The position numbers and the translations under genes were made by a program. Source: a virus. From it: a DNA stretch of 26,741 bases. Location: positions 1 to 26,741 of the IMG/VR virus record IMGVR_UViG_3300010354_000523; one strand, given 5' to 3'. The notes under the pieces were generated by a model that worked only from the letters and a program-made list of their open reading frames with translations, was not told where the DNA came from and searched no databases. Shown piece after piece: positions 1 through 23,774 of the stretch (position 1 is the first letter of the stretch; each line of letters begins with the position of its first letter).

Positions 1-2342
1 CCTCCGCATCCAGTACCAACGCAGATGGTTTCTCCGTATTCAACCACAAGAGTAGTGCAGCAAGATACAATACTTGCAGATGTTCCGCAAGCACCGCATG
101 GAGTACATCCTGCACTCTCGGCGCATTTCATGTAAGTTCTGACCGCTTGGTATAGTTTGCATCCGTCTGGGCATCCTGCACCCGCTCCGATTGGCTGAGG
201 TGGAAGTGGAAGATTGTTGTCTTCTGGTCCTGGAGTGGTCGCTACTGTATCGTAAACATTCGGATTTGGTGTTCCAGTACATCCGCCTGCAAAGTACATC
301 GTCCAAAACTGAACACCCAAGAAGTTGTTACCTCCAAGATATCCGTCTGATGGCTTGGTATCTTGTACATCGGGAATGTCTAGCACAATTTCATAGCGAT
401 TCCAGTTTGCGCTTCCATCTAATGTTACCTTAACAGGAGTGGAATACGCATCATCTAGGATGCCTCGATTTCCTGCAAAGTGCTGACGAAGGGTTACATA
501 GATGTCGCCTGGATCAGTTCCTCTTGCCCAGAAACTCAGGGTAACTCGCTCACCGCTGAATGTGCGAACATCCTCTATGCGATTTTCCAAGTAGTGATAT
601 GACTCGTAATCCACACCAGTTACCAATGCAACTGAAGGCCAATATGTTGTGGTCGGAGAACCATGAGGACGATTTGCCGTCATCAAAGTGCCTTGGAACT
701 GAGCATATGTGGTGATATCGTCTGGCAACTCCTCTGCTCTTGCGCCAGGAGCAACCACGGTGCCTGGATCAAGCGGAACTACCATAGATGCAGGATTGAA
801 GTGAGTACGCTTAACTCCCTTCTTTAGTACATGGTATGTTCCAGTTAGCGGTGGTTGGATTGGAGGAGAAACGCTAAAGTCTTCAAACCAACGATCTGCT
901 GTATATTCTGGCTGAGCATCGAATGTTTGGCGAGAGAATTCCTTTCCTCGCTGCCATACCAAGAATGCACCATTGATGATCGCGTTATCGTTTAGACCAA
1001 CAGGGTTCAGAGGCGCGCAGCAATCGTTGATGAATGTACCGCAGTCTACGGCAAGTGCCTTGATGGCAAATATAACCTTCAATGCATCTGCACGAACATC
1101 AACAGTCGCGCTGTATCCTGTTCCACTCTGAATGTCTCCACCAAGATCAAGTGGATTGGTGTTGCTTCCTGAATAGTCGCCTGCGTCTGATTGAATATTG
1201 CTACCTTCAAACACAGCATACGGATCGGCACCGCGCAAAGTTCTACTACGAAGATTTGGAACAAAGAACTGACGATCAATGCCTGGAATATACGGAGCGC
1301 GAACCTTGACTTGTAGTGCTTGTCCAACTTGATATTCGGTCACACCTTCAGGTGGTGCGCTACGATCAACGATTACGCGAAGTCTGTTGTTGTCTATGAT
1401 GCTGTCGATGATGGCAGCAACTTCTCCTGATCCGCTGCTCGATTGTAGTTTGATATTGAGCGGTTCTTGTAGAACTGCTGCACTTACATCAATGTTCTCT
1501 CCAGTAAAGTCGAGAATGCAGTATCCTTCAATTCCAGTAAATGTGTCTGCCTGCGGAGCATCACCTTCAAGAGTCAGCGTAGCAGCAACACGAACGCTTC
1601 CACCAATCGCTTCTGCTAGTTGGGGATATTGAGAAGTGTTGCACAGTCTTCCATCGCAAGGAATCCATGAATCGGGAACAGTAGTTTCCAAGAAAGCACC
1701 AACTGCACCAACCTTCTGAACATCCTGAATGTTGATCCACTCTTCTGGCAAACTCTCTAGTTTCGATCCAATATAGTTCACCACAACTGCTCTGCGGTGA
1801 TCCAAAGCAACAAGCATTGGTTTCACAACCGTTGTTGCCAAGACTCCGCCAAACTCAAGAGGACTTTTGCGGATTAGTTTACCTGCTTCATTAGGAAACG
1901 GACTCAGATAGTAAACACCGCCTGGTGTGTACTGTTCTCTTACTGAATCGGTTCCTGTAAGCAAAGCATACTGGCTATAGTCGATGTCAAGAGCATCGGG
2001 AATGGTGATCTCGCCACGGAACACTATACTGAAATAGTGTCGCGGGTTATTGCAGGATTCTTCGGTCTGCGTTCTGTGATCGAACTCGTAGGATGGCAAA
2101 GCGCGCAACGAGTAATCTAGGGTGGATGCCGTGTTGTCTGCTCCACGGTATCCGCTGTGACTGACCACTCCCAACGCCTCTGCATTGTGTGCCAAATCGG
2201 CAGAAGCAAGCACCCACTTCTGAGTGGCACCATCCCAACGCACAACATCTCCGAACAGAAATGTGTGATCCTGTTGGTAAATCTTGGTGCGGCGGTATGC
2301 TCTACCGTCCCAGTATGATCTGTGAAACGCGCTTACTCCCAT
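1..2342 (-). CDS. Tail fibre protein with phage tail-collar domain, 3' end beyond window (partial)
   Basis: The frame is open from an ATG at 2342 to the left edge, 780 codons with no stop, so the C-terminus is missing. The N-terminal part (residues about 22-200) shares a domain with the upstream 1162-residue protein. Residues 212-245 (GAVGAF...PDSWIPCDG) followed by FFVPNLRSR at 359-367 match the phage tail-collar pattern of short tail fibres such as T4 gp12. Residues 456-485 (IINGAFLVWQRG, then ADRW) and LSFWARG at 602-608 resemble the jelly-roll, sugar-binding-like modules common at fibre tips. The last 60 visible residues contain 10 cysteines. The start is chosen by AAGGTGAGG upstream and a 24-nt gap after the previous stop. 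Its place at the downstream end of the baseplate block, in the gp12 slot, supports a role as peripheral host-binding fibre. The collar call is firm; receptor and oligomeric state are inferred. Confidence 0.85.
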   Translation of the reverse strand, partial: MGVSAFHRSYWDGRAYRRTKIYQQDHTFLFGDVVRWDGATQKWVLASADLAHNAEALGVVSHSGYRGADNTASTLDYSLRALPSYEFDHRTQTEESCNNPRHYFSIVFRGEITIPDALDIDYSQYALLTGTDSVREQYTPGGVYYLSPFPNEAGKLIRKSPLEFGGVLATTVVKPMLVALDHRRAVVVNYIGSKLESLPEEWINIQDVQKVGAVGAFLETTVPDSWIPCDGRLCNTSQYPQLAEAIGGSVRVAATLTLEGDAPQADTFTGIEGYCILDFTGENIDVSAAVLQEPLNIKLQSSSGSGEVAAIIDSIIDNNRLRVIVDRSAPPEGVTEYQVGQALQVKVRAPYIPGIDRQFFVPNLRSRTLRGADPYAVFEGSNIQSDAGDYSGSNTNPLDLGGDIQSGTGYSATVDVRADALKVIFAIKALAVDCGTFINDCCAPLNPVGLNDNAIINGAFLVWQRGKEFSRQTFDAQPEYTADRWFEDFSVSPPIQPPLTGTYHVLKKGVKRTHFNPASMVVPLDPGTVVAPGARAEELPDDITTYAQFQGTLMTANRPHGSPTTTYWPSVALVTGVDYESYHYLENRIEDVRTFSGERVTLSFWARGTDPGDIYVTLRQHFAGNRGILDDAYSTPVKVTLDGSANWNRYEIVLDIPDVQDTKPSDGYLGGNNFLGVQFWTMYFAGGCTGTPNPNVYDTVATTPGPEDNNLPLPPQPIGAGAGCPDGCKLYQAVRTYMKCAESAGCTPCGACGTSASIVSCCTTLVVEYGETICVGTGCG

Positions 2343-2366: not shown

Positions 2367-5300
2367 TCATGCTGTAGCAGTCGGCATTGGGATGACGCGC
2401 ACATTTGTCATTCTGGCAGTAATGTTGTACTTGCCAATACTGCGTGGATTGTTTCCTCCGCCTGGATCAATGGTAACTGTGCAAGTGATTGCTCGGGTTG
2501 ATTGGTTGATACTGAACACGACGCTGCTTGCAGAGTCCCACAATCCTGTTGCATCTAGATGCAAGTCGTTTCCTGATCCTGTGTTAGAAGCAGTAGTAGA
2601 CCATACGGTGAATGTTCCTGTATCTGTTCCAACGCCATCCAAGCGGAACGCAAGATCGCGCATGGAGCCATAGAACCAGCCTTCTGTATTTGGAGTACCT
2701 GCTCCTGCCGCACTTGGACGATAGAACACAGAACCGCACAGTTCAAAGTCGCACACAAACATGGAACCACCTGTGAGCAAATCAATCTCTTGTGCAAGTG
2801 GTTGTGGTCCAAAACTCACCACGATATCATTCAGAGTGGCATTATTGTTTCCAGTAACCGATTGCTGATATACCGTCAGCGTATTGTCTCGGTTTTCCCA
2901 CATTTGAGTGGTTGCATTCCATACAAGAATCTGACCATCTTGTACTGCATCCGCTCCAGTTACAGGGGCATCAACATCCCTGAGATCGTCTATGCGAAGC
3001 ACAGGATTCTCTTGGAAGTAGTCTCCATTCACTACACCTTCGTAGTTTGTCACAAGCAATTGATAATCGTTTACTGCAAGCACAACTGGTTTGCGAATGT
3101 ATCCGACTTCTAGCGGTTCACAATCTACTAGGGTTCCACCCGTTACTGGATTCAAGAAGTAAACTGATCCAGGCGTAATGTCAGCAAGACCGCACATTCC
3201 TACTGTCCAATCAATGAGATTGCCAACAGCAATGAGCCATCCTTCTGCTGTAGCAACTCCACCGCCAATGTCGCAATCGCTACCTCCGCCTGTTACTTGT
3301 TGCACGACAATTCCAAGAACTTCTGCATTGTCGCGGGTATCTGCTCTGGCTAGGAACAATGCTCCATTAGAGTTGATACCAACAACATCTCCAACATCAA
3401 AGTCTGTGTAGTTGGCAGCACCTGTTACAGGCACAAAGATTCTATCTTGCTGAGTGTGATCCAACACACCAAACTCGTTTGTGACCACAACACTATTTGG
3501 TTTTGTTCCACCCTCTACATTGAACTGCGGAGAGCAAGTAATGTTGTGGATATAAATGCCACCACATGGCAGAATACTAAGTGCAGGGATGTGTCCTGCT
3601 GTTCCTGTTACTCCAGTTGGAACAAATGCAAAGTGCAACAGTCCGTTGTCTGTGCTGTCTAGACAATGGTTGCCTGTAATCAGAGTTGCATCAAGATATT
3701 GATGCACATTCCAGTAGTTGTGCGATCCAGTAGAGTTGTTTGCAAAGTTACTGCTACCGTTTGCAATATTGAACGGAGTCAGCACATGGTATCGGGTATC
3801 TACTGCAAGATTCTGATTCAGAGTCCATGCATCATTCACATTTGCCCAAAGGATTTGTTTGTTGCCTTGGGACGAGTTTAGAATGATACCGCCACCATTT
3901 ACATCAATATCGGTTCCTGCTTGGCCAGAGATCACATTGATTGTGAACTTGACTCCGCTGCGAGTTGTGTATGCAACCTTTCCTGTTTGGAACGGAACAT
4001 CGTTATAGATGCGAACCTTTACAGTTGCTTGTGAACCTCCGCCAGTAATGTTGCTTACTGAGATGATACTAGCGCGAGAGTATTCTGTTCCTGTTAGTTC
4101 GGGTGTCTCGGGCGTTCCGATGTTGTTGTTATGCAGAACAACCCCTGCTCCATCCGTATCGGTTGCGCTGTATCCAGGACCTCTATTCAGGTATGCAGAG
4201 ATGTTTGCGCTACCAGTTAGATCGTATGGATCATCTGTGTATCCGCTAACAGGATCAATTGAACCTGGCTCAGTTCTCGCATAGGTGCTTACGCGCAGAT
4301 GCTCTTGTACAACCCACTCACCCGTTAGACCAGTATAGGTGTTGCCTGGATCGGTTTCATCGTTCTCTAGCGATCCACCTTCATAGTAGTACGAATCGCC
4401 GTCGGGATCGTGACTCATTCCTGCAATGAGTTGCGATGCTGTACCACTCACCATGACTACCGTGAACTCTAAGAACGGACTCGCTCCCAGTTCAATGGCT
4501 TTGTCATCAATGGTCAGTTTAGTGGCATTGATCTCCATTGCGGGAGATTCAAATGCAACTTTGCCCGTGAATCTGTGATCGCCGGCAATGGTAAACGGAA
4601 GCATATGTTCCGCTTTAACCTTGTACAGCATTGCAGCGGTGTTTGCGGGATCAATGCCTCTGCGAGATGGATTTCCAAGTTCATCAATCTCGAATCGCTC
4701 AAACACGAACAAGTCAGTATCTTTGACTTGATTTCTTCCCTTGCCGTCTTCAAACTTATCATACGATCCTGTTACTTGAACTTCGGGTAGACCAAAGATG
4801 TCAAGTACAATCTTTCCATTCGCGCAGTCTTGTGGGAGTCCATTAACTGGCGATGTAGGAGGGAAGATGCGAAGTCCGGCACCAACATCTGCTTCAAGAT
4901 ATAGAACTCCGTTCTGAGAAGGAACGAGTTCTTTCAATCCTCCCAATGCCTTCACATCGTAGATGCGAAGAGGATCAAGGGCAGAGATGATATTGTTTGT
5001 TGCTGCATACCACTCGTAGAATGTGTCTCCGAGAGATAGCGGAGAAAGCGGTGTCTCCCACGGTCTGTCGTGGACATTGCATTCTCCAGTTACTCCGCAC
5101 TCAAAGCCAGGCAATGCTCCAATAATGACAATCTTTCCACCACGAATCTCAGTTCCATCGGTGGAGTACTCTCTGTAGTATAGAACATCGGGCGCACAAG
5201 CAGGAACGCGGAATGCCAAGTTAGGGCACGGTTGTCCTGCACAACCTCCTCCACCAACGCACGGACAATTCATTGTCGAAGGCAATTCGTGCAGTAGCGC

Positions 5301-5855
5301 CGTGTATGATCCACCTTCCCACGGAGCATCCACCTCCATTGAGGCATCGCGGTACAGTAGATTTCCGTTGGTCGCGGCAGTTCCTGTTACAGAGTAAAGA
5401 ACTCCGCTGTTCAAGTCTCCGATTGCACTTGTAGCGATGCAGATTTGATGTCCTGCATTTGATCTATCTTGTTGTCTGAAGACGATCCATTGTCCACGGA
5501 AGGCATATAGAGTTGGAGCAAATCCACAGTTGCTGTTTAGATGCGTACTGTAGTCATAGAAATCAGCACCTGTAACTGGTCCAGGCCATCTGAGATAGAA
5601 AGCATCTTCTAGTGTTGTGCCAGATTCAGCGGTATCTTTACGCACAAACACATCTACAATGTATCCCTCGCTTCCAGTAGTGGAATCTGCTGTAGGAGGA
5701 ACATTGTCAAATGGAAGACTTACTCCAGTTAGTCCGATGTGAACATTGCAGACACACAAATCCCACTCAGGTGGATTCGGAGATGGGGTTGGTTGCGGTG
5801 GGAACGGAGGTTCGCAACCAGTTAGATTTAGATTTGGGTCTGGGCAAGTTGGCAT
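2367..5855 (-). CDS. Large cysteine-rich fibre-like virion protein (1162 aa)
   Basis: This is probably a peripheral baseplate or tail-fibre protein; I do not recognise a full-length family. It opens with a Pro-rich segment (residues 16-29) and a cysteine-rich first 260 residues, including NCPC and QPCPN near residues 195-215. Around residue 450 it has an INATKLTIDDKAIELG stretch, a motif style often seen in T4-like tail fibres. Residues about 800-945 are a domain shared with the next fibre gene. Residues about 945-985 (LRIDDLRDVDAPV, then DGQILVWNATTQMW) match the short fibre module that carries GQxLVWNxxTxxW. The C-terminal 170 residues look like a beta-rich jelly roll. Val/Leu/Ile-Thr-Gly tripeptides recur throughout. 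The start follows TAGGAACC, 41 nt after the preceding stop. It lies between a Ser/Thr-rich protein and a collar fibre, which supports an exposed structural role. Fibre class is fairly sure, exact role unknown. Confidence 0.7.
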   Translation of the reverse strand: MPTCPDPNLNLTGCEPPFPPQPTPSPNPPEWDLCVCNVHIGLTGVSLPFDNVPPTADSTTGSEGYIVDVFVRKDTAESGTTLEDAFYLRWPGPVTGADFYDYSTHLNSNCGFAPTLYAFRGQWIVFRQQDRSNAGHQICIATSAIGDLNSGVLYSVTGTAATNGNLLYRDASMEVDAPWEGGSYTALLHELPSTMNCPCVGGGGCAGQPCPNLAFRVPACAPDVLYYREYSTDGTEIRGGKIVIIGALPGFECGVTGECNVHDRPWETPLSPLSLGDTFYEWYAATNNIISALDPLRIYDVKALGGLKELVPSQNGVLYLEADVGAGLRIFPPTSPVNGLPQDCANGKIVLDIFGLPEVQVTGSYDKFEDGKGRNQVKDTDLFVFERFEIDELGNPSRRGIDPANTAAMLYKVKAEHMLPFTIAGDHRFTGKVAFESPAMEINATKLTIDDKAIELGASPFLEFTVVMVSGTASQLIAGMSHDPDGDSYYYEGGSLENDETDPGNTYTGLTGEWVVQEHLRVSTYARTEPGSIDPVSGYTDDPYDLTGSANISAYLNRGPGYSATDTDGAGVVLHNNNIGTPETPELTGTEYSRASIISVSNITGGGSQATVKVRIYNDVPFQTGKVAYTTRSGVKFTINVISGQAGTDIDVNGGGIILNSSQGNKQILWANVNDAWTLNQNLAVDTRYHVLTPFNIANGSSNFANNSTGSHNYWNVHQYLDATLITGNHCLDSTDNGLLHFAFVPTGVTGTAGHIPALSILPCGGIYIHNITCSPQFNVEGGTKPNSVVVTNEFGVLDHTQQDRIFVPVTGAANYTDFDVGDVVGINSNGALFLARADTRDNAEVLGIVVQQVTGGGSDCDIGGGVATAEGWLIAVGNLIDWTVGMCGLADITPGSVYFLNPVTGGTLVDCEPLEVGYIRKPVVLAVNDYQLLVTNYEGVVNGDYFQENPVLRIDDLRDVDAPVTGADAVQDGQILVWNATTQMWENRDNTLTVYQQSVTGNNNATLNDIVVSFGPQPLAQEIDLLTGGSMFVCDFELCGSVFYRPSAAGAGTPNTEGWFYGSMRDLAFRLDGVGTDTGTFTVWSTTASNTGSGNDLHLDATGLWDSASSVVFSINQSTRAITCTVTIDPGGGNNPRSIGKYNITARMTNVRVIPMPTATA

Positions 5856-5896
5856 CAGATGAGGTTCCTATGCTGCTATGCGACTATGTATCGGTA

Positions 5897-6730
5897 TTAT
5901 GCTTCTCCAACTGGCGTACTTGAAGCAGATGGAGAAGGTGTTGGGGTTAGAGTTGGAGTCACAGATGCGGTTGGTGAAATTGTCGGAGTTAGACTCGGTG
6001 ATACTGTAGGTGTCGGTGTCTTTGTCGGTGTTACAGTAATGCTTGGAGTAACTGACGGGGATGGAGAAAGCGATGTTACTGGAGTGTTTGTTACACTTGG
6101 AGTTGGTGTAACTGAACGAGTTGGACTTACAGTTGGAGTTACTGTAATACTCAAACTTGGACTTGGAGTGATAGACTTTGTTGGAGATGGTGAAGGAGAT
6201 GGAGAAGAACTTCTCGTAATGCTCGGCGTCGGTGTAATTGTCAGAGTCGGACTTGGTGTAAACTCGGGGAATCTTGTAGGTGAAGGTGTTGGTGTTGGAG
6301 TTCTTGAAGAAGTAGGAGATACGGTTGGGGTGAATGTCACCGTTACTGTTGGAGAAGGGGTTACGGTGCATAGTGGGTAGCATCTCAGCAAGCCCAAAAC
6401 CTGTGCCTCAAGAACTGCAATACGATCAGTTAGTGTCTCGATTGTATCTACTGTGTTTCTTGCTGCTGCTTTAGCGGTGCGCTTGTCAATTGTTGCCTGC
6501 ACCTTTGCAGCATCGCTGGCATTTTCAGCAAACTGCACTCCAGGCTGACCCTGAACTCTTGCAATTTCTGCATTGATTACGGGTGCTGCTGCTTGAAAAC
6601 TACTGACAAGATCATTCAGCAAGACGATCTCTACAGATGCGCCTGTATCTGCGCTAACAGCCGATACGACTTTAGTTGTATCTGTTTGAAGCGATGATTC
6701 TGTGTATCTGTTTTTGGGATTGCTTGCCAT
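5897..6730 (-). CDS. Virion-module protein with coiled coil and long Ser/Thr-Pro-rich alternating tail (277 aa)
   Basis: The function is unknown. Residues 1-90 are mixed, Ala/Thr-rich and probably globular or helical. Residues about 93-116 (DTIETLTDRIAVLEAQVLGLL) have heptad spacing typical of a short oligomerising coiled coil, followed by CYPLC. From residue 122 to the end (156 residues) the chain is an almost perfect two-residue repeat with Ser or Thr first and Pro, Val, Ile, Leu, Arg or Lys second. There is no signal peptide or membrane segment. The start lies 3 nt after the stop of the 2274-residue gene (TAACACATG), with only a weak GGTGG ribosome site, so translation is probably coupled. 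Position among fibre genes suggests an exposed stalk, spacer or decoration protein, perhaps O-glycosylated; that is inference. The minus frame is the real one: it carries a ribosome site, a non-repetitive N-terminal domain and operon-like spacing. Confidence 0.75.
   Translation of the reverse strand: MASNPKNRYTESSLQTDTTKVVSAVSADTGASVEIVLLNDLVSSFQAAAPVINAEIARVQGQPGVQFAENASDAAKVQATIDKRTAKAAARNTVDTIETLTDRIAVLEAQVLGLLRCYPLCTVTPSPTVTVTFTPTVSPTSSRTPTPTPSPTRFPEFTPSPTLTITPTPSITRSSSPSPSPSPTKSITPSPSLSITVTPTVSPTRSVTPTPSVTNTPVTSLSPSPSVTPSITVTPTKTPTPTVSPSLTPTISPTASVTPTLTPTPSPSASSTPVGEA
5900..6367 (-). repeat. [Ser/Thr]-X dipeptide repeat, 78 units
   Basis: Residues 122-277 of the 277-residue protein fall into 78 consecutive dipeptides, of which 73 begin with Ser or Thr; the exceptions include F-P, E-F and V-T. 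Pro is the most frequent second residue. At DNA level the period is 6 bases, but codons vary widely: Ser uses TCT, TCA, TCC, TCG, AGT and AGC. The repeat is therefore conserved at protein level rather than being a fresh microsatellite expansion. Confidence 0.9.
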
Positions 6731-6733
6731 GTG

Positions 6734-9700
6734 TTATACCACCGCGATTACTCGTAGGTCTTTGACTTTCGGAACGATAGTTCCATTGTTGCTGTACATC
6801 ACAACTTTGATTGCATACCGCGTGAATGGAACCGCAAATTGTTGCTCAGCCTTGGTATAACCAGTTCTGGGCGCGCTAGGACTTGGATACGAATACTCTG
6901 GCATAGTGAATGAGTATTCCGTGAATGTCACTTCATCTGTGGCAATTTGTGTTGCTTGCAGAGGGTTCACATCCATTCTCATCCAGTTCAGATCATCAAA
7001 AGGAACATCTGAGTCAGCGGTTTGTACTTTTGCCCACACTTCAATAGAAGTCTTGATCTCTGTGTCTTGTCCGCTTGCACCATTTACATAGGTGTAGTTT
7101 GGAAGATTGGCGCTGAGATACACCTTCAAATCGTCACATTCTAGACCAGTAAGCAGATCGACTCTGCGAGAAATGTACCTGCTAACTGGGTATACTAGAT
7201 TTCCTTCGCCATTTACTTCATCAATCTCATAAGGAGGACGAGCCTTGTATTCGACTTCCCAGTTTTGACTGGCTGGTTCAGGATCACCGATGATGTTGTC
7301 GATCAGAATGGCGCTCACGCGCTCGCTGTCAACGCAAGGTGAGAGGGTCGGATCGGTGCTTGTGAACTCAAATATGAGTCTGCTATCTGCATTCATTTGG
7401 AATGCAACTGGTCGTGGAGCGAAGTTTTCGTTCAGAGGTACTGCAAACTCTCTTCGACTACCGTTCGAGTCCATCAAAGAAATCTTGGCATTGATTTCTG
7501 TACCATCGAACTTCAGCATCTGAGCAACGATCTTCATGGCATCAACTTCAAAATCGGGATCGGTTGTGCTGAATCCAAGATCGCCAGCAACTGGAGCAAA
7601 CTGAATCGACCAAGTGTTGTCGTTGTTGGGGGTTGGATTGAATCTGCAAGTGTTTAGGGAGAACATCAAGTCTGTGTTTTGATCCGCAGACCATGTGCTT
7701 GCGTTCTGAGACTTGAAGAATACGCCAGCATATGGTTGCTGTGTAATGCGCGTATTCTCTGTTCCAATGGCAACTTCTCCCATTTCGGCGATATAGCACT
7801 CATACTCTGCACTATTGCTCATAATCACAATAGCGTATTCGCCAGGAATCAAGTACACGGGGCTAGAGAACTGGAATCTTGTGTATTTGGTTGCATCGTC
7901 AATCGTTGGAAGATCGGTTCCAAGACCACTCACAACAGTAACCTCAGAAGCATTCAATGCTGCTTCTGCAAATGGAAGCACCATTGAAGAGTGAGGATAT
8001 CCATTTACGGTTGGTCTAATCTGCACTCTTACCGGCGGAGCAGACGATCCTGTTGGCTTGTTCTTGAAGAACAGGTCAATGCTATGCACCCAAACACCCT
8101 TTGGATTCTTCGCAACATCTACTAGGAATGTTTGAGCAAGAGGATCGCGCCAAGAGATGTTTGAAGACGAATCTGTTTGAACACGAGTCACCACATCGCG
8201 CACCACACGCTCTTCCTTGACACTCTGACGAGTGATTGTAGGAACGCGAGTAGATACAATGGTATTCTCTTTCGTCTGTAGCAATCCCTGAGCAAAGTAA
8301 CTGCCATCGGCAGATGTGTTGCTCTTTGGTAGATCATTCGTTGCACTATCGGTTAGGCGGAATTGTCTTTCGCCAGTCTTGAATACCCCACCAGGCAAAT
8401 TGAATACTACTTCGACTTCACCTGTTGCACTAGTCTTGATTGGATTCGATGGAGTAACCTTGTTTCCATTGAATAGGCAATACTGGTCAACCGAGGTGTT
8501 GTCAAAGAAGGCATGAAGAATCGTATTTGGCTTCAAAGACTTTCCAGTAATAGTAATCTGACGAGAGCGAATGTAAGGAACAACGCTAACATCTACGATT
8601 CTATCTCCGAGTTCTTTGGTAACTCTCTGCGGAGTAATCGTGGTCTTTACACCTTCTCGCGTCTGCTTACGGTCAACTGTTTCTGTAACTAGATTGGTAC
8701 GGGTGGTTGTTGTCTGTAGGCGTCTACGCATTACACCATCTGGCGCTCTGCGTGTATGTGGAGCATCCAAGAACTGACTAGAAGTTTTCTCTCCTAGAGA
8801 TTCTGTGGTGCTTGATCGTACACCTGTCCATGTGGTTTCCCAATCGTTCCATTGAGTACCGAAGGCATTCTTCATGCCTTGCCATGCATCGTTTTCACCT
8901 TCAAGATTGACGGTTACTGCTGGCTTAGTCTTGGTGTCAATCCATGTATCTGTGCTTGGAGACATAGTTACAGTTCCAAGCCAACTTACGATATCGAATG
9001 GGTTGACGCTGATTGCTCTGCTTGCAATCGGTTGAATAATGTATCTGTTTGGATTGCTAGAGTCGTACTTCAGAGTCACTACACCATCTGGCGATACTAC
9101 AAAGTCCGAGGTTTCGTTTGATGCAGGGATTACTGGATCAAATTCGATATGCTTGGTGCTAAAGCGCGGGCGCAGATGCCCCTTGTCGAAATCCATGGCG
9201 CATGAATAGTATGGACTAAACACATCTCCTACACCATGTCCCTTGAAGTTGTCAACAAAGATTCCATTCTTGATGCGCTCTGCTCCACCCAATGCAGGAT
9301 CGGGAATAGACAGTTCTGCTGCTTCTTTTTCTAGCAGACTGAGCGTTGTGTAATATTCAACACGCTCTATGCGCTTCTCTAGTTTGGCAATATCACTCAT
9401 GGTGAATCGCTTGTTGTCGATGTAATCGACCAACACATCTTCTGGACCAAAGGTGTATTGCGGAACTGTCAGATTGTACAACGACATCGACTCAGGAACA
9501 TCCTTTGGAGATTCTGGGCGAATCGCTGGCTTGCCTTCGATGATCTTGAACTCGCGGTTCTTCAGCAATACAATCTTGTCTCTGCGAGAAGTGAAGTAGT
9601 CGTATGTGACTGCTGGCCTCGAGCCAGATACACCAACAGCAGGAAGCACGGTTTCAGAATCTCCGCGCGCCAAACGAAGAACAAATGCTCCAGTTGACTC

Positions 9701-12700
9701 GTCAACCATAGAGTTGTCGCGCAACGGGCAATCTTCATCTAGTGCCTGTGGTCGGTTTGCATCGGTTGCTGTGAAGTTTGATGCTTGCTCTACAGCGGTT
9801 GCAACTCTTGCAGGGGTGCTATTTTCTCTAGAAGGTCTGTAATCCAAGCAGTTGCGGAGTTCAAATGTAAATCCGTAAACTGGACTTGTGTATAGAGGAA
9901 TGTCTTCGTAGCGATTGAAGAATGGGTGATGATCGTAGTGTTCGTATGAGTTTACTGTGAATGGTCCGCTTCCGCTGTGCTTGAAGAACTTGAAGCGCAC
10001 AAACAGGGTGTAGTCTAGTTGATCGCCTTTGTTCTTGAAGATGCCTGGGAACTGCTGCTTTAGGCTTTGCAATACACTCTTGCGAATCACGATCTTTCCG
10101 TGATCGTAGAAGTTATCATTGCACCCATTCAGCATCTCAAAGTACTTGGTGATATCTCTCTTACCAGTTGGATTCGCCACTCCATCTGTGTTGTCCCATA
10201 CAAGAACTTCATCAACCGAAAGAATATCAGAGAATCCTAGACTTGTGATGTACTCTTCTGGCAGATTTGGATTTTGGAACGAGTTTGTGTTTGTTGCACT
10301 CGTTGCATCATCATCGCCAATCCACAAGTCCCATCCATTTTGGCCATCGTCGGTGTAGTTAACATTCCACGGATCATCCGAGTCATCTCCATTGAACTGG
10401 AAAATTCCATCCCAGTTTTGCAAAGGAACCATGAAGTATCCGTCTTGGTCGAAGTACTTGTCCCACTTTGTGCCCGTATACTCTCCAATGACCGCAGCCG
10501 ACTTCTTTCTGAAGTTTACTGTGGGGGCAGAACCTGCTGTTTGAGCGGATACCACCGTTTCCAAAGAGAACGGTTTATTTGTGATGCCAAGTGTATCGCC
10601 TGCTGTTGGCTTGTAGACAATATACAGAACAGTTTTGTCTGCATTGGTCAATGCTTTGATCGGACTCGCAGGGTCTGCAACAGAACCAACCGTAAACATC
10701 TTGTTGGTGTTTGCATTGAATAGCATGATCTTGTCTAGATTGTCTGCTTGAAAGAACGAAAGGCTAGTGGAAAGAGCAGTATTGATAGATGCTTCAAAGG
10801 CAGAACCGCCAGCAATGCCTGCTGAAGATAGCGGAGTTTGTCCCTTGAATGAGTATAGAGTATCGTCAGACGATCCCGAAACATTGGCAACAATACCAAC
10901 CCCCGTGGTCTGATTGCTCAAAATCCACATGAGATTTGCACCACTACCATACTGTTTCCATACGAGACTGCTTCCATCAACGAAGTTAGGACCAGCACCC
11001 GCTCCGCTATTTACCAGTTGTTTGGTAAATGACTTCTTGCAGTCATACTTGACCTTTGCAAACTCATTGATTTGCTTGACCGAGCAAAGACTCGGAAGAT
11101 CAAATATTGCCAAGTTTGCTTTGGGAGCAAAGAGAATGGTATCGTAGTAGTTTACCAGTACCGTTCCAGTTGGACTAGTTTGCTCTACCTGAGTGAATGC
11201 AGTACCACCGAATCCCGATGGGCCGCCCGTGATGCTGATATTGAACAGTTCTACAGTACCGGCCATCTGATCGCCAGTAACAACTGTATCTTCTACATTC
11301 TGATAGCGGAAACGAATGTGATCGAAGTCTGCAAAGTATTGTCCATCGTTGATCTGAATATCGCAGAGATGAACATTCACCTTTCCTTCGTTTGGACTTA
11401 CTCCACGGATACGAGCAGTACCTACAAGAGTGTTTCCATTTGCATTTCCAGTTAGAGCATCGGGAGAGAGTTGGTTCCACAGTTCTACCTGTGGCATTGA
11501 ACTCCATGACGGAATGCGAAGGGTTGTGGGAGCGGTTGTATCTCCCAACGGTTGTTCGCAAATCACATAGTTTCCAAGTACGAGATTGACTTCTTCTCCG
11601 ATTACACTTTCAGACGCTCTTGCTTTTTCGATAGGAAGGAACTTGGTGTTTTGGTTCTCAAACTCATATCCATAGATGTACGCCTTACCTGTTCCAATTC
11701 CGACTGCAAGTTTGCTCTTTGCTGATTCTAGCGCATCTGTTACCTGTGAAGTAGTTGGATCAGCAGCATCCGAAGACCATTCGGGATGTAGTCTAGCAAG
11801 AGTATACTTTCCATTGAAGCGATTGTCTGAGAACACAGACACATGAGGGAAAACTGTCAGATAGTCTTTAGCAGCATCTCCCGTCTGCGAAAGAATCTTT
11901 CTAGGTTCTCCGTCACCCTTTGTATACAAGAAGTCATACACATCTCCCGTGACAGGAATCTCAGACTTCAAGAAGAAACGATTGTTTGTTCCTGGCTTGT
12001 TGTAATGCTCAGATACAATGGTGTCGCCTTCTTCGGGAGTTCCAAAGATCATGTACAGTAGAGTTGTTCCATATCCTCCGCTGCGGAAATCAACTTCGCC
12101 TTGTCTTGCCAAGAATGTATCTTGGTTTGCTACCAATCCCTTCCATGCAAGACCGTCGTTTCTGATTCCGTACAGACTAATATTTGCAGGGAATCCGTCA
12201 GTAATGTCAGCAAATCCTGCTTCGTTTCTTACTGTGTAGTATGTGGAATTTGGGGCACCTTCGATCTCTCTCACACCACTACGAAGAACACAGTACTTTT
12301 CATCATTGAAGTACTCTTCAATGTCGAGTACAAATGGCTTTACCGTGTACGATCCCGACTCGTCATATGTTCTGCGAGCCAAAGTCTCTTCGATCTCGCT
12401 GTAGATTGGATATTTCACGGAGTAGCGAATGTTTCCGTCTACTACGCGGGTCAGTTCTACAAAGTTGTTTGTCTTGTATTGCTCTACATCTGCAAGAGTG
12501 TCAAGATTGGTGAATGCAAGTTGATCTAGAACTAGATCAACCTTGTATCGGTCTGCGCCTGGAGCAGCATAGTTGTACGATCCATATGCAGGATCAAGCA
12601 AGGAAGAATCACCATCTGCGTCAATGACTTCGCGCTTGATGGTAAATCCAACTCTACACGATGGGAACTGATATAGACGAACACCAACAAGCGAGTTGAT

Positions 12701-13558
12701 TTGTGTTTCGCTGCCAGTTACGAATGTCCATCCTCCCGATGTTGCAGTTTCGCCAGGAGAACTCGTCCATTCTGTTTCGACTGAGTTTGGTGCAGATAGA
12801 GGACCAAACACATCTGTCTGAAGTCTTGCTTTGCGCTTTAGAGCGATTGTTTGTCCGCTTGCAAGAACAAATGCTCCATCAATGTAGTAGATGCCATCTT
12901 GGTTGGACATCAAGTATGCCTTACCGAATGTAGCAATCTTGTCGCTTGCAGGATCGCCCATCTTGACACGGCATCGCAGACTTGTGTATACTTCCGCGTT
13001 TGTAGTCTCATCTACAAGAGACACAACAGAAAGCATCTGCTGAGAACCTGTTAGATACTCGTACAGATTTTCCAAGTTGTTTATGGTTTCATCTGCACCC
13101 GTGGTTTGATTTCTGACTGTTACTGAGTTCTGATATTCAACGAACAGGACATGGTAGTTGTCCCCTTCGATTGCAGATACTGCTTCAGACGCTTCAGCGT
13201 GTAGCACTTTCATTCTGAGTTGCGGCGAATTTTGGTCAAGATTTACAAGCGTCTTGCCTACAAACTGGGATGGAGTGATTTCGCTATAGACTCCATCTGC
13301 ACCAGTAACTGCAATTTCCACACGGATAAAGTTGCACTCTACAATGCCAAGTTGACCGTCAACAACAGGACTACCATCCTTGAAGATGTGGTTGGCAAAT
13401 CTACTGATTTGCTTCTGTAGAACCGTCTGTAGTTGTGTAAGTTCGCGGGCCTGCAAGGCATAACCAGGCTTGAACAGCATCTTGATGAACTTCTTGCTGT
13501 CCTGATAGTCGTCGTAATACGGGAAGCCTGCGAATTGTGTTGGTTCGATCTCTGCCAT
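6734..13558 (-). CDS. Giant DUF4815-type virion structural protein (2274 aa)
   Basis: The N-terminus (FPYYDDYQDSKKFIKMLFKPGY, then ARELTQLQTVLQKQISRF and HIFKDGSPV) matches the DUF4815 family of large structural proteins in T4-like cyanophages. Further family-like landmarks in order are TGKAYIYGYEFE with PIEKARAS near residues 615-650, ELRNCLDYRPSR near 1235, a helical stretch KLEKRIERVEYYTTLSLLEKEA near 1390-1415, and DPLAQTFLVD followed by a beta-rich region near 1805-1900. The last 200 residues are again beta-rich. No enzymatic motif or membrane segment is visible. The gene starts 10 nt after gp8 with AAAGGAC as ribosome site. It occupies the T4 gp9-gp10-gp11 position and likely forms the outer baseplate or fibre attachment. 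The family call is from remembered motifs; the placement in the particle is inference. It alone takes up a quarter of the window. Confidence 0.85.
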   Translation of the reverse strand: MAEIEPTQFAGFPYYDDYQDSKKFIKMLFKPGYALQARELTQLQTVLQKQISRFANHIFKDGSPVVDGQLGIVECNFIRVEIAVTGADGVYSEITPSQFVGKTLVNLDQNSPQLRMKVLHAEASEAVSAIEGDNYHVLFVEYQNSVTVRNQTTGADETINNLENLYEYLTGSQQMLSVVSLVDETTNAEVYTSLRCRVKMGDPASDKIATFGKAYLMSNQDGIYYIDGAFVLASGQTIALKRKARLQTDVFGPLSAPNSVETEWTSSPGETATSGGWTFVTGSETQINSLVGVRLYQFPSCRVGFTIKREVIDADGDSSLLDPAYGSYNYAAPGADRYKVDLVLDQLAFTNLDTLADVEQYKTNNFVELTRVVDGNIRYSVKYPIYSEIEETLARRTYDESGSYTVKPFVLDIEEYFNDEKYCVLRSGVREIEGAPNSTYYTVRNEAGFADITDGFPANISLYGIRNDGLAWKGLVANQDTFLARQGEVDFRSGGYGTTLLYMIFGTPEEGDTIVSEHYNKPGTNNRFFLKSEIPVTGDVYDFLYTKGDGEPRKILSQTGDAAKDYLTVFPHVSVFSDNRFNGKYTLARLHPEWSSDAADPTTSQVTDALESAKSKLAVGIGTGKAYIYGYEFENQNTKFLPIEKARASESVIGEEVNLVLGNYVICEQPLGDTTAPTTLRIPSWSSMPQVELWNQLSPDALTGNANGNTLVGTARIRGVSPNEGKVNVHLCDIQINDGQYFADFDHIRFRYQNVEDTVVTGDQMAGTVELFNISITGGPSGFGGTAFTQVEQTSPTGTVLVNYYDTILFAPKANLAIFDLPSLCSVKQINEFAKVKYDCKKSFTKQLVNSGAGAGPNFVDGSSLVWKQYGSGANLMWILSNQTTGVGIVANVSGSSDDTLYSFKGQTPLSSAGIAGGSAFEASINTALSTSLSFFQADNLDKIMLFNANTNKMFTVGSVADPASPIKALTNADKTVLYIVYKPTAGDTLGITNKPFSLETVVSAQTAGSAPTVNFRKKSAAVIGEYTGTKWDKYFDQDGYFMVPLQNWDGIFQFNGDDSDDPWNVNYTDDGQNGWDLWIGDDDATSATNTNSFQNPNLPEEYITSLGFSDILSVDEVLVWDNTDGVANPTGKRDITKYFEMLNGCNDNFYDHGKIVIRKSVLQSLKQQFPGIFKNKGDQLDYTLFVRFKFFKHSGSGPFTVNSYEHYDHHPFFNRYEDIPLYTSPVYGFTFELRNCLDYRPSRENSTPARVATAVEQASNFTATDANRPQALDEDCPLRDNSMVDESTGAFVLRLARGDSETVLPAVGVSGSRPAVTYDYFTSRRDKIVLLKNREFKIIEGKPAIRPESPKDVPESMSLYNLTVPQYTFGPEDVLVDYIDNKRFTMSDIAKLEKRIERVEYYTTLSLLEKEAAELSIPDPALGGAERIKNGIFVDNFKGHGVGDVFSPYYSCAMDFDKGHLRPRFSTKHIEFDPVIPASNETSDFVVSPDGVVTLKYDSSNPNRYIIQPIASRAISVNPFDIVSWLGTVTMSPSTDTWIDTKTKPAVTVNLEGENDAWQGMKNAFGTQWNDWETTWTGVRSSTTESLGEKTSSQFLDAPHTRRAPDGVMRRRLQTTTTRTNLVTETVDRKQTREGVKTTITPQRVTKELGDRIVDVSVVPYIRSRQITITGKSLKPNTILHAFFDNTSVDQYCLFNGNKVTPSNPIKTSATGEVEVVFNLPGGVFKTGERQFRLTDSATNDLPKSNTSADGSYFAQGLLQTKENTIVSTRVPTITRQSVKEERVVRDVVTRVQTDSSSNISWRDPLAQTFLVDVAKNPKGVWVHSIDLFFKNKPTGSSAPPVRVQIRPTVNGYPHSSMVLPFAEAALNASEVTVVSGLGTDLPTIDDATKYTRFQFSSPVYLIPGEYAIVIMSNSAEYECYIAEMGEVAIGTENTRITQQPYAGVFFKSQNASTWSADQNTDLMFSLNTCRFNPTPNNDNTWSIQFAPVAGDLGFSTTDPDFEVDAMKIVAQMLKFDGTEINAKISLMDSNGSRREFAVPLNENFAPRPVAFQMNADSRLIFEFTSTDPTLSPCVDSERVSAILIDNIIGDPEPASQNWEVEYKARPPYEIDEVNGEGNLVYPVSRYISRRVDLLTGLECDDLKVYLSANLPNYTYVNGASGQDTEIKTSIEVWAKVQTADSDVPFDDLNWMRMDVNPLQATQIATDEVTFTEYSFTMPEYSYPSPSAPRTGYTKAEQQFAVPFTRYAIKVVMYSNNGTIVPKVKDLRVIAVV

Positions 13559-20680: not shown

Positions 20681-22129
20681 TCATCCAAATACATTTCCAC
20701 CACCAGACTGTATTCCGCCATCGTCCACTCCTAGTTCAACTGGAGGAGTTGGAGTTGGAGTCGGGGTTCGTGTTGGTGTTGGAGAAGGCCATCCCACGAT
20801 AATAACTCCGTCCGATCCACCACTTGCATCTTCATCGAAGAACCCTCCATCGTGAATACCATCGTCAGGGGTTGGGGTGACTTGATTACTCTCTAGACTT
20901 GCAACTCGATATCCAACTTGCATGGTGCGCTGCTCAATCTCCGCAAGTTTTTGTTCTAGCAGAGCGACCGTTTGTGGGTCTAGTGCGGGAGTTGGTGTGG
21001 GTGTTCCCGTGACCACGCCCTCAAAGATGAGTTCGTCTGCAACAGGCTCAAAGAAGATTTCTTTGTCTGTTTTCTTCTGCTTGTTTGCACGATCTTTGCC
21101 AAGTTCTGTAGTTGCGGAGGCAGCAGCGGCGGTTGCTTTCTGCTCCTTATCGCGTTCAATGTCTATGGCTGTGATTGCATCTCTGAGATTATCGCTGCCA
21201 GTAAACTCCTCTAGCATGGCGCGCATGATGCAGTTTCCTCTTCCATCTCCGTTCACGATTGCTGCCAGGAATTGACCTAGTGTAAACTTCTGCACATACG
21301 CTTGAGCCAACGAGAAGCGAGACAGGTCTAGGGATACGATGTAGTTCAAATACTCAAAGAATCCAGCCAGGTCAGACAGCATCTGATCCAGTTTGTCAAA
21401 GAATGCGTCTAGACTCATTCCTCCAAGCAGTCCGATGATATCGTCTAAGGTAAATGGCAGTATGCCTGCGATCAAGTCTAAGATGTTGCGAAGGATTTGT
21501 CCCAACGAATCGGGAACACATAGCAGATTCAGCATCTGCTGTACTATGATTGGACCTTGAATGGTTGAGTTAAAGAATCCAGTAAAGTTGTCCTGATCCT
21601 TACCCTCCATTTGCTGCTTTGCAGAATCATAAGCACTTGCAATGCCCATTGTTCTTTGAAAGGTAACGGGATCACCTACTCCGCTCTGCTGATCGGTGTG
21701 AGATTTGAAAGAGTTGATCTCTGATTGTTGCTGTGTGAGTTTGTCGGTAAATGTGGTTTGTTGAGTTGCAGAGTTTTCTGGACCATACTGCAAGGTTCTC
21801 AGTTTGTCGAGAATATCTCCACCAAGCGTGCTTGATCTTCCAAAGAAGTAAACCTGCGCGGGAGTTACCTGTTCTTGCGGATTGTCGGGATTCGTAGTGC
21901 TTGTTCCATTGTACCACCACGGAGGAATAGAACTGGCAAGAGTCTTTATGTCTTCTGAGCATAGAAGCCATTGCAAAATGCCCAACGCAGATGCATTCTC
22001 GAATATCTGACCCTTCATTACCTTGTCTATGAGGGACTTTACGGCATTGGATAGTCTATCGGCGTTCGGAGTGCATTTACCGACTGCTCGTTTCGTTAGT
22101 TCTTTGGTTCTTTCAATTCCATCTGCCAT
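20681..22129 (-). CDS. Unknown virion-module protein with hydrophobic helical core and Thr-Pro linkers (482 aa)
   Basis: I do not recognise the family. Residues 1-200 are mostly helical and polar. Residues about 190-295 hold a run of hydrophobic and amphipathic helices (IIVQQMLNLLCV, ILRNILDLIAGILPF, IIGLLGG, LAGFFEYLNYIVSL), long enough to insert in a membrane or pack as a bundle. Residues 320-355 are charged and Ala-rich. A Thr-Pro linker (375-381) leads to a probable coiled coil (384-414), then a second Thr-Pro linker (448-463) and a Gly-rich end. The gene starts 3 nt after the PAAR gene stop (TGACACATG), with GGGGTG as weak ribosome site. Its place between the spike tip and gp25 suggests a hub, tail-tip or injected protein; a divergent hub (gp27-like role) is possible but I see no sequence support for it. 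Confidence 0.75.
   Translation of the reverse strand: MADGIERTKELTKRAVGKCTPNADRLSNAVKSLIDKVMKGQIFENASALGILQWLLCSEDIKTLASSIPPWWYNGTSTTNPDNPQEQVTPAQVYFFGRSSTLGGDILDKLRTLQYGPENSATQQTTFTDKLTQQQSEINSFKSHTDQQSGVGDPVTFQRTMGIASAYDSAKQQMEGKDQDNFTGFFNSTIQGPIIVQQMLNLLCVPDSLGQILRNILDLIAGILPFTLDDIIGLLGGMSLDAFFDKLDQMLSDLAGFFEYLNYIVSLDLSRFSLAQAYVQKFTLGQFLAAIVNGDGRGNCIMRAMLEEFTGSDNLRDAITAIDIERDKEQKATAAAASATTELGKDRANKQKKTDKEIFFEPVADELIFEGVVTGTPTPTPALDPQTVALLEQKLAEIEQRTMQVGYRVASLESNQVTPTPDDGIHDGGFFDEDASGGSDGVIIVGWPSPTPTRTPTPTPTPPVELGVDDGGIQSGGGNVFG
20741..20788 (-). repeat. Thr-Pro linker, second copy in the 482-aa protein
   Basis: Residues 448-463 read as PSPTPTRTPTPTPTPP, the same [S/T]-X alternation as in the 277-residue protein. 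A shorter copy, residues 375-381 (TGTPTPTP context), lies at 20987-21007. The two flank a predicted coiled coil. Confidence 0.8.
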
Positions 22130-22424: not shown

Positions 22425-23774
22425 TTAGTTCAGTTGGATGGTAGCACCGCGAATGATGGTGTCTGCTTTGCTTGTGAAACGATGATACTGACCAGACTTT
22501 AGCGCGGTGTAAAGTCCAGTTGTCATGTCTCTGAATCCTCCGCAGGATTCTAGAATATTCTTTGCTGCTTCCAAGATGTAAGTCTTGTTGGTCTTGATAT
22601 GCGTGTCATCGCCAGAGTGAGAGAACCGCTTTTTGCCGATTCTTTCTGTCATGTTTCCTGTGACATCTAGCGTGTAGTTTCCATTCACATAAGCATTGTA
22701 GTCTCCATTATGCAAGGTAAGGTTTACGCTTCCACGCATTACCTCCACATTCACATTGGCTCCTTGACCAACCTGTACATCAAAGTTCTTGCCATTTTCT
22801 TGATCGGTGTTCTGTAGAATACGAAGTGCCTTGTCGATGGTGACATAGGTGTTTCCATCTATCTGCACATGGTTGTCTTTCAGTATCACCGTGTAGTTGT
22901 CGCGCACGATTCGCTCTACCTTGCTTCCATCGGGAAACACCTCATAGTGGGTTCCGCTTCGATGGTATTCCGTGATGCGCTCTGCATCGGGCGTATCATC
23001 GCATTCCCATGTGTGCCCAGACTCGGACTCGGTTACATGGTTGTAAGGATACTGTGCAGCATATTCGCTTTTGCGTTCATTCCATGCAGGCCCATCGGGA
23101 CTCTGAGTTCGTACAGAACCACCAACCGCAGGATCAGCGCCAGGAACGGTCTTGCTTCTGTTTGGTTGAAGCGCAGTAGGAACTGATTCCTTTGCTGTTC
23201 TGCGCTTCAATCCAATGATGGTTTCGTCTGTTTTGCATCCCCTTGCTAGACGATTTGTGTCTTGCTCATTGAGTCTTGCTTGGTGAGGACCGTCACCGAT
23301 ATGCTTGGGGTATGTCTTACCTTCTGTTGTATTTTCTAGAATGGCTCCTGTGCCATCGTTTGGATACTGTTGAACACGAAACTCATCTTTAGGAATGAAC
23401 TTCAGTTCTTTGCTTGTGCGCGGATCATTGAATCCCTTTTGGTTATTTGCCTTCTCTTCAGGGATTCCACCAATGCTTCCAAATATCACAGGCTCTTGGG
23501 CGTTTGCTCCGTCCCTAAAGAATCCCATTACCCACGATCCAGGCACTAAACCAGTTGGAGACTGTCCGATTCCGCTGATTGCTGCACTAGTGATGGGTTG
23601 AATCGGATACGCCCATGGCAGTTTGTCTGTTGGGATATCTTTCTTGTCGCTTGTATGAAATCCAAGAATGCGAACTCTGCATCGACCAAGTTGCAATGGA
23701 TCGAGGTTGTCCTCGACTACTCCCTGCCACCAAACAAATGAGTGACCAACAAAGTCACGATGCAGAATGTCCAT
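22425..23774 (-). CDS. gp5: Baseplate hub spike gp5-like, no lysozyme domain (449 aa)
   Basis: Residues 1-130 (HSFVWWQGVVEDNLDPLQLGRCRVRILGFHT, then LPWAYPI, then GSWVMGFFRDGANAQEPVIFG) are the gp5/VgrG-type OB-fold domain. Residues about 246-310 (HVTESESGHTWECDDTPDAERI, SGTHYEVFPDGSKV, then NYTVILKDNHVQIDG) begin the triple beta-helix needle, which continues to the end as short repeats. T4 gp5 (575 aa) carries a lysozyme domain between these parts; here only about 110 Pro- and Gly-containing polar residues lie there, with no lysozyme-like catalytic pattern. The spike therefore seems to puncture without degrading peptidoglycan. The ATG overlaps the stop of the 105-residue gene (TAATG). PAAR follows 1 nt downstream. 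The family call is firm. Confidence 0.93.
   Translation of the reverse strand: MDILHRDFVGHSFVWWQGVVEDNLDPLQLGRCRVRILGFHTSDKKDIPTDKLPWAYPIQPITSAAISGIGQSPTGLVPGSWVMGFFRDGANAQEPVIFGSIGGIPEEKANNQKGFNDPRTSKELKFIPKDEFRVQQYPNDGTGAILENTTEGKTYPKHIGDGPHQARLNEQDTNRLARGCKTDETIIGLKRRTAKESVPTALQPNRSKTVPGADPAVGGSVRTQSPDGPAWNERKSEYAAQYPYNHVTESESGHTWECDDTPDAERITEYHRSGTHYEVFPDGSKVERIVRDNYTVILKDNHVQIDGNTYVTIDKALRILQNTDQENGKNFDVQVGQGANVNVEVMRGSVNLTLHNGDYNAYVNGNYTLDVTGNMTERIGKKRFSHSGDDTHIKTNKTYILEAAKNILESCGGFRDMTTGLYTALKSGQYHRFTSKADTIIRGATIQLN

Follow-up and report, generated by a model that had tools for sequence, protein, structure and literature searches.

Results

The gene and its neighbourhood

The window, by which we mean the whole 26,741-base virus record that was analysed, is probably a genome fragment. 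Its main genes are all on the minus strand and together make up a T4-like baseplate module, in which the order is a cytidyltransferase-like protein, a gp5-like OB protein, the PAAR tip, a 482-aa protein, gp25, gp6, a gp7-position wedge protein, gp8, a giant DUF4815 protein, a 277-aa gene and two fibre-like proteins. The 277-aa gene, its parts and its neighbours lie at the following positions:

5897..6730, minus strand: whole gene, 277 aa, short coiled-coil structural protein with a Ser/Thr-X tail (ORF list; synteny with relatives and S-PM2)
6383..6730, minus strand: N-terminal domain, residues 1-116 (AlphaFold model; identity to relatives)
6368..6382, minus strand: CYPLC junction, residues 117-121 (alignment)
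6275..6367, minus strand: proximal [S/T]-X spacer, residues 122-152, 31 residues (alignment of relatives)
6260..6274, minus strand: RFPEF motif, residues 153-157 (alignment of relatives)
5900..6259, minus strand: distal [S/T]-X tail, residues 158-277 (comparison with relatives)
6734..13558, minus strand: upstream neighbour, giant 2274-aa DUF4815 baseplate protein, phrog_358 (Pfam, PDB matches)
2367..5855, minus strand: downstream neighbour, 1162-aa presumed fibre/structural protein (ORF list; S-PM2-like position)

The giant neighbour matches Pfam PF16075 (E 5.8e-52) and ORF65 of PDB 9euf (E 4.3e-36), and the 1162-aa neighbour has a Pro/Ser/Thr-rich N-terminus. When genome contigs were scanned with gp6 as the query, no match was found. 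We rejected the possibility that the 277-aa ORF is an artefactual reading frame; an antisense ORF (5859-6380) and an ORF in another frame (5868-6383) look like mechanical by-products, which stay open because the repetition of Thr, Pro and Ser codons happens to yield no stops there.

Elsewhere in the module, the C-terminal region of the 482-aa protein between PAAR and gp25 (20681-22129, minus strand) contains short runs of Thr-Pro that are length-variable or missing in relatives L001-L016. For the gp5-like protein (22425-23774, minus strand), Pfam gives an OB domain and a C-terminal repeat alone, and the lysozyme domain was not found. The 780-aa collar-fibre protein (3-2342, minus strand), which is cut by the end of the record, has a Cys-rich C-terminal part.

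Alternation in the window copy

The initial annotation had described an almost perfect alternation of Ser or Thr with other residues over 156 residues, and we confirmed it. The tail spans residues 122-277 (window positions 6367 to 5900, minus strand), and of its 78 dipeptides 73 have Ser (30) or Thr (43) in first place, while the second position (X) is Pro in 38, Val in 12, Ile in 6, Leu in 5, Arg in 4 and other residues in the remainder. Chance as the source of the pattern was rejected: among 20,000 shuffled sequences of identical composition the mean was 41 dipeptides beginning with Ser or Thr, and none exceeded 53. Five positions break the register, and the Phe and Glu of the conserved RFPEF motif are among them, so part of the imperfection of the register is itself constrained.

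The codons are as varied as had been claimed. Ser is encoded by TCN 22 times and AGY 11 times, Thr by ACA (20), ACT (14), ACC (6) and ACG (4), and Pro by CCA (22), CCG (8), CCT (7) and CCC (1); the third positions of the Thr codons are near the background usage of the phage. Thr codons match one another at short lags at about the chance level, and Tandem Repeats Finder reports short weak arrays, with a maximum of 4.5 copies of a 6-base unit. The window copy is thus not explained by recent slippage, which we rejected as its origin, and by its sequence the copy is old.

Relatives and distribution of the tail

A tblastn search with the N-terminal domain and the tail against 50,697 phage records gave no match (the low-complexity filter masks the tail), and scanning viral contigs with that domain as a single query sequence gave no match either. 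We found relatives among IMG/VR contigs by anchoring on the giant DUF4815 neighbour, and read the ORF that follows the giant gene in 21 of them. The encoded protein has a short N-terminal domain and, after it, an [S/T]-X tail in L062, L063, L064/L065/L070, L066, L067/L069 and the more diverged L068. Identity of the N-terminal domain to the tail-bearing relatives is 36-56% (38% to L067). Every near relative keeps the alternation; close homologues lacking it, which the initial annotation had named as the counter-case, were not found. The 205-residue tail is identical in L065 and L070, which come from two samples; like the others it comes from metagenome assemblies, where repeats can be mis-joined.

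In the nearest outgroup, L071/L072 (47% identity in the giant protein), the gene has 112 codons, encodes 111 aa and ends after the coiled coil without a tail. In the more distant relatives whose ORFs were read, the proteins are 62-91 aa long, tail-less and mostly coiled-coil-like, and 6 of the 7 that were scanned match phrog_473 'virion structural protein'; the L071 protein did not match phrog_473. HTVC008M and Melnitz have a gene for 72-75 aa immediately after the giant gene, and in S-PM2 the order is gp8, the giant gene, a 67-aa 'virion structural protein', structural proteins and the tail fibre, which the order in the window matches. As near relatives have the tail and none of the outgroups read has it, the tail appears to be an extension of the protein in this slot within one phage group: a C-terminal extension that would have been gained in the tail-bearing group, or else lost from the outgroups.

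Ser/Thr-rich segments also turned up in other genes of these contigs. In L066 a second, tandem gene (10918-11640) begins with a short segment unlike that of the first and carries a further Ser/Thr-X tail, of 187 residues, which suggests that the tail behaves as a module. A fibre-like protein of L065 (10145-13810) contains a Thr-Pro-Thr-Gln tract, and in L068 (10335-11153) the tail continues into a long poly-Pro. The distant phage L086 has adjacent proteins of 1139 aa and 1142 aa (2656-9506), each with a Ser/Thr-X segment of 125-150 residues, located upstream of its coiled-coil gene. A pattern scan for the RFPEF region matched one known relative and L117, which we set aside as a chance match.

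Three-part anatomy of the tail

Alignment of the relatives divides the tail into a fixed proximal spacer, the conserved RFPEF motif and a length-variable distal part. The RF(P)EF-type motif follows the YP[LI][CF] junction at a distance of exactly 31 residues, ungapped, in all six distinct lineages. Across 16 register positions of the spacer in these six lineages, Ser or Thr occupies 95 of 96 cells (the sole exception is a Pro in L063), and is retained despite many third-base changes. Of the 15 X columns of the spacer, 4 are invariant Pro and the rest vary among P, V, I, K, R, A, F, H and S. The motif reads RFPNEF in L066 and RIFEV in L067/L069, and in L068 both CYPLC and RFPEF are absent. The two Cys residues of CYPLC are kept or lost together, with RYPLF in L062; this single case is a hint that they act together.

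The distal tail ranges from about 30 to about 170 residues across the relatives (169 in the longest). The flanks of L067 and L069 align without gaps: identity is 99.3% across the 3,328-base stretch that ends at the giant gene and 99.5% across 3,000 bases within the gene that comes next. Even so, the two distal tails differ by 126 gap columns. The initial annotation had argued that recent slippage does not maintain the pattern; that stands for the window copy, but in relatives the distal tail grows by tandem duplication, and that of L069 carries a perfect 36-bp one. In L065, 84 of 97 Thr codons are ACA, and there are signs in this sequence of a young expansion.

Selection on the hydroxyl register

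That the pattern is held at the protein level, as had been proposed, was borne out by Nei-Gojobori estimates over the 31 proximal columns, in which dN is 0.07-0.23 at register positions and 0.17-2.0 at X positions, with dS high or saturated in both. Amino-acid differences at register positions are Ser-Thr swaps in 53 of 58 cases, a count over pairs that are non-independent and drawn from few lineages. When neutral mutation was simulated until Thr third bases were as randomised as in the window, a calculation that starts from pure ACA without mutation bias and serves as a rough guide, Ser or Thr remained at about 30% of positions, as compared to the 94% observed. These comparisons indicate that selection holds the register positions while the alternate positions change freely, and that the tail is a real, constrained feature.

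Predicted structure

A monomeric AlphaFold model, run on nine sequences, predicts a small beta hairpin, a helix at residues 40-60 and a long helix at 71-117 (mean pLDDT 54; 69-87 in the blocks of the long helix, the sole usable part). The long helix has a heptad pattern that can be read from the sequence (I97, L100, I104, L107, V111, L114), in agreement with the coiled coil that the initial annotation had placed before the tail. PDB matches of the outgroup alignment A2 include coiled-coil chains, in keeping with a coiled coil in the short protein, although such matches are generic.

In the tail, AlphaFold predicted neither regular structure nor a strand. The earlier suggestion that all hydroxyls lie on one face was not borne out: it requires a beta strand, which is unlikely when 38 of the 78 X positions are Pro and none is predicted. 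For the same two reasons a polyproline-II-like or disordered conformation is more likely than a beta one. In polyproline-II there are three residues per turn, and alternate side chains spread round the axis, so that a single hydroxyl face would not arise.

Comparison with known systems

The gene resembles phrog_473 (S-PM2p088, T4-GC 112) in lying directly after the giant gene and before the fibre genes, and the protein likewise combines a small N-terminal part with a C-terminal coiled coil. Known members of phrog_473 stop after the coiled coil, whereas the 277-aa protein has 156 residues more. The N-terminal domain gave no profile match to phrog_473, and hhalign probabilities were 4% and 15%.

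Serine-rich repeat glycoproteins of the Fap1 type also contain a long region of alternating (S/T)-X dipeptides, and their Ser-X dipeptide stalks, in Fap1 as in other members of the group, carry sugars (PMC3601411; PMC6973325). In contrast to these proteins, which carry a long accessory-Sec signal peptide and an LPXTG anchor, the 277-aa protein has neither when its sequence is read directly; no counterpart of their GtfA/GtfB pair was seen with the phage gene (families tested, window fragment), X in the phage tail is mostly Pro, and the gene lies within a baseplate cluster. The serine-rich repeat proteins are the nearest functional likeness and not relatives.

The tail also shares composition and low complexity with the Pro/Thr-rich regions in a survey of low-complexity regions of prokaryotes and phages, where the longest phage region was 115 aa (PMC6821194), and in relatives it shares growth by tandem duplication. 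It differs from those regions in its two-residue register with randomised codons, its fixed 31-residue spacer, its internal motif and its length of more than 115 aa. The claim that such a length is unusual in baseplate modules did not survive: the modules of the near relatives all have such tails, and Thr-Pro tracts are common in viral contigs, where a DNA pattern for six Thr-Pro units gave at least 120 stretches and, among the matches listed, an [S/T]-X segment of 248 residues in one open frame. Matches to phrog_15511 fall on the Thr-Pro stretch, and we read them as shared composition and not homology. The sequence type is thus common, and the three-part anatomy with its exact spacer is the new part.

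Discussion

We propose that the 277-aa protein is a small structural protein that would sit at the edge of a T4-like baseplate, in the gene slot that by synteny is that of the Kyanoviridae short structural protein after the giant gene, of which it is a putative homologue. Its N-terminal coiled coil would be the anchor. The first 31 residues of the tail would act as an extended strap, Pro-rich and constant in length (a 31-residue segment, fully extended, measures about 95-105 Å), ending at RFPEF, a candidate docking motif that may be held by a neighbouring virion protein. Past RFPEF, the chain would be a free hydrophilic Ser/Thr-Pro brush, probably exposed outward, whose exact sequence and length would matter little and whose size could change by in-frame tandem duplication, while selection would maintain its character, with a hydroxyl at every second residue. 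The brush is probably an outward spacer or a surface-contact bristle near the fibres, and its Ser/Thr array may be O-glycosylated. We give this proposal as a whole a probability of about one half.

A glycan-based reading is possible but less likely. In it the tail is a mucin-like or SRRP-like stalk, O-glycosylated by an enzyme of the phage or of its host, and the sugar coat stiffens it into a bristle that serves attachment or shielding. In its (S/T)-X alternation the tail is like Fap1, whose (E/V/I)S dipeptide repeats are glycosylated (PMC3601411), and the hydroxyl register is the very feature that selection has kept. The initial annotation had proposed a check for a glycosyltransferase gene: searches with PF00535 and PF00534 in the records of twelve relatives found glycosyltransferases in the distant G012 and, in the near relative G005 (L066, the phage with two Ser/Thr-X tails), a GT2-family gene, whereas the families tested are absent from the window and from the contigs of the other near relatives, a weak absence in fragments. 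By the locus coordinates, some 14 kb separate gp6 from the GT2 gene upstream of it in G005. The window extends 6.5 kb in that direction, and the contigs of G006 and G009 also stop short of such a distance, so the absence of the gene elsewhere says little. A PMT search did not find one. It also counts against a glycoprotein stalk that T4-like phages carry glycosyltransferases for other purposes. Separately, in the distant relatives L073 (10426-11565), L075 (8340-9476) and L077 (10506-11642) the gene that immediately follows the short coiled-coil gene encodes a glycosyltransferase-like protein of about 380 aa (MAKNKLVLSMIVKNEAHVIERCL...); the PF00535 match in G012 is in the record of L077.

It is unlikely that the tail is simply a low-cost, low-complexity sequence, in which a 6-base Thr-Pro repeat expands by slippage at a dispensable C-terminus and leaves a pattern that marks this origin and is only weakly selected. 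The abundance of Thr-Pro tracts in viral contigs, the tandem duplications and low codon diversity of relatives such as L065 and the highly labile distal length all fit such an origin, but synonymous positions in the window are randomised with Ser or Thr still at 94%, the length of the proximal spacer is fixed, RFPEF is conserved and register dN is far below X dN. For the proximal part this reading is already strained. A beta-structured fibre, in which the alternating chain forms strands in an oligomer with its hydroxyls all on one face, is very improbable: about a quarter of X positions are the strand-favouring V, I or F, but Pro takes 38 of 78, the model has no strand in the tail, and X residues of relatives include K, R, Q and Y.

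Returning to the anchored strap and selected brush, a stronger version, in which a fixed Ser/Thr-Pro ruler runs from the coiled-coil anchor to the docking motif and a fast-evolving glycosylated brush of variable length tunes adsorption, seems to us rather improbable as a whole. If a ruler plus brush is nevertheless what these phages carry, it would be a two-part phage appendage in which brush length is a tunable adsorption trait, and should the brush carry sugars, phages would have in it an equivalent of the serine-rich repeat stalks of bacteria. Thr-Pro low-complexity tails are common in environmental phages and are usually masked in searches. Comparison across relatives splits one such tail into spacer, motif and brush, and offers a testable case for structural work at the contact between phage and host.
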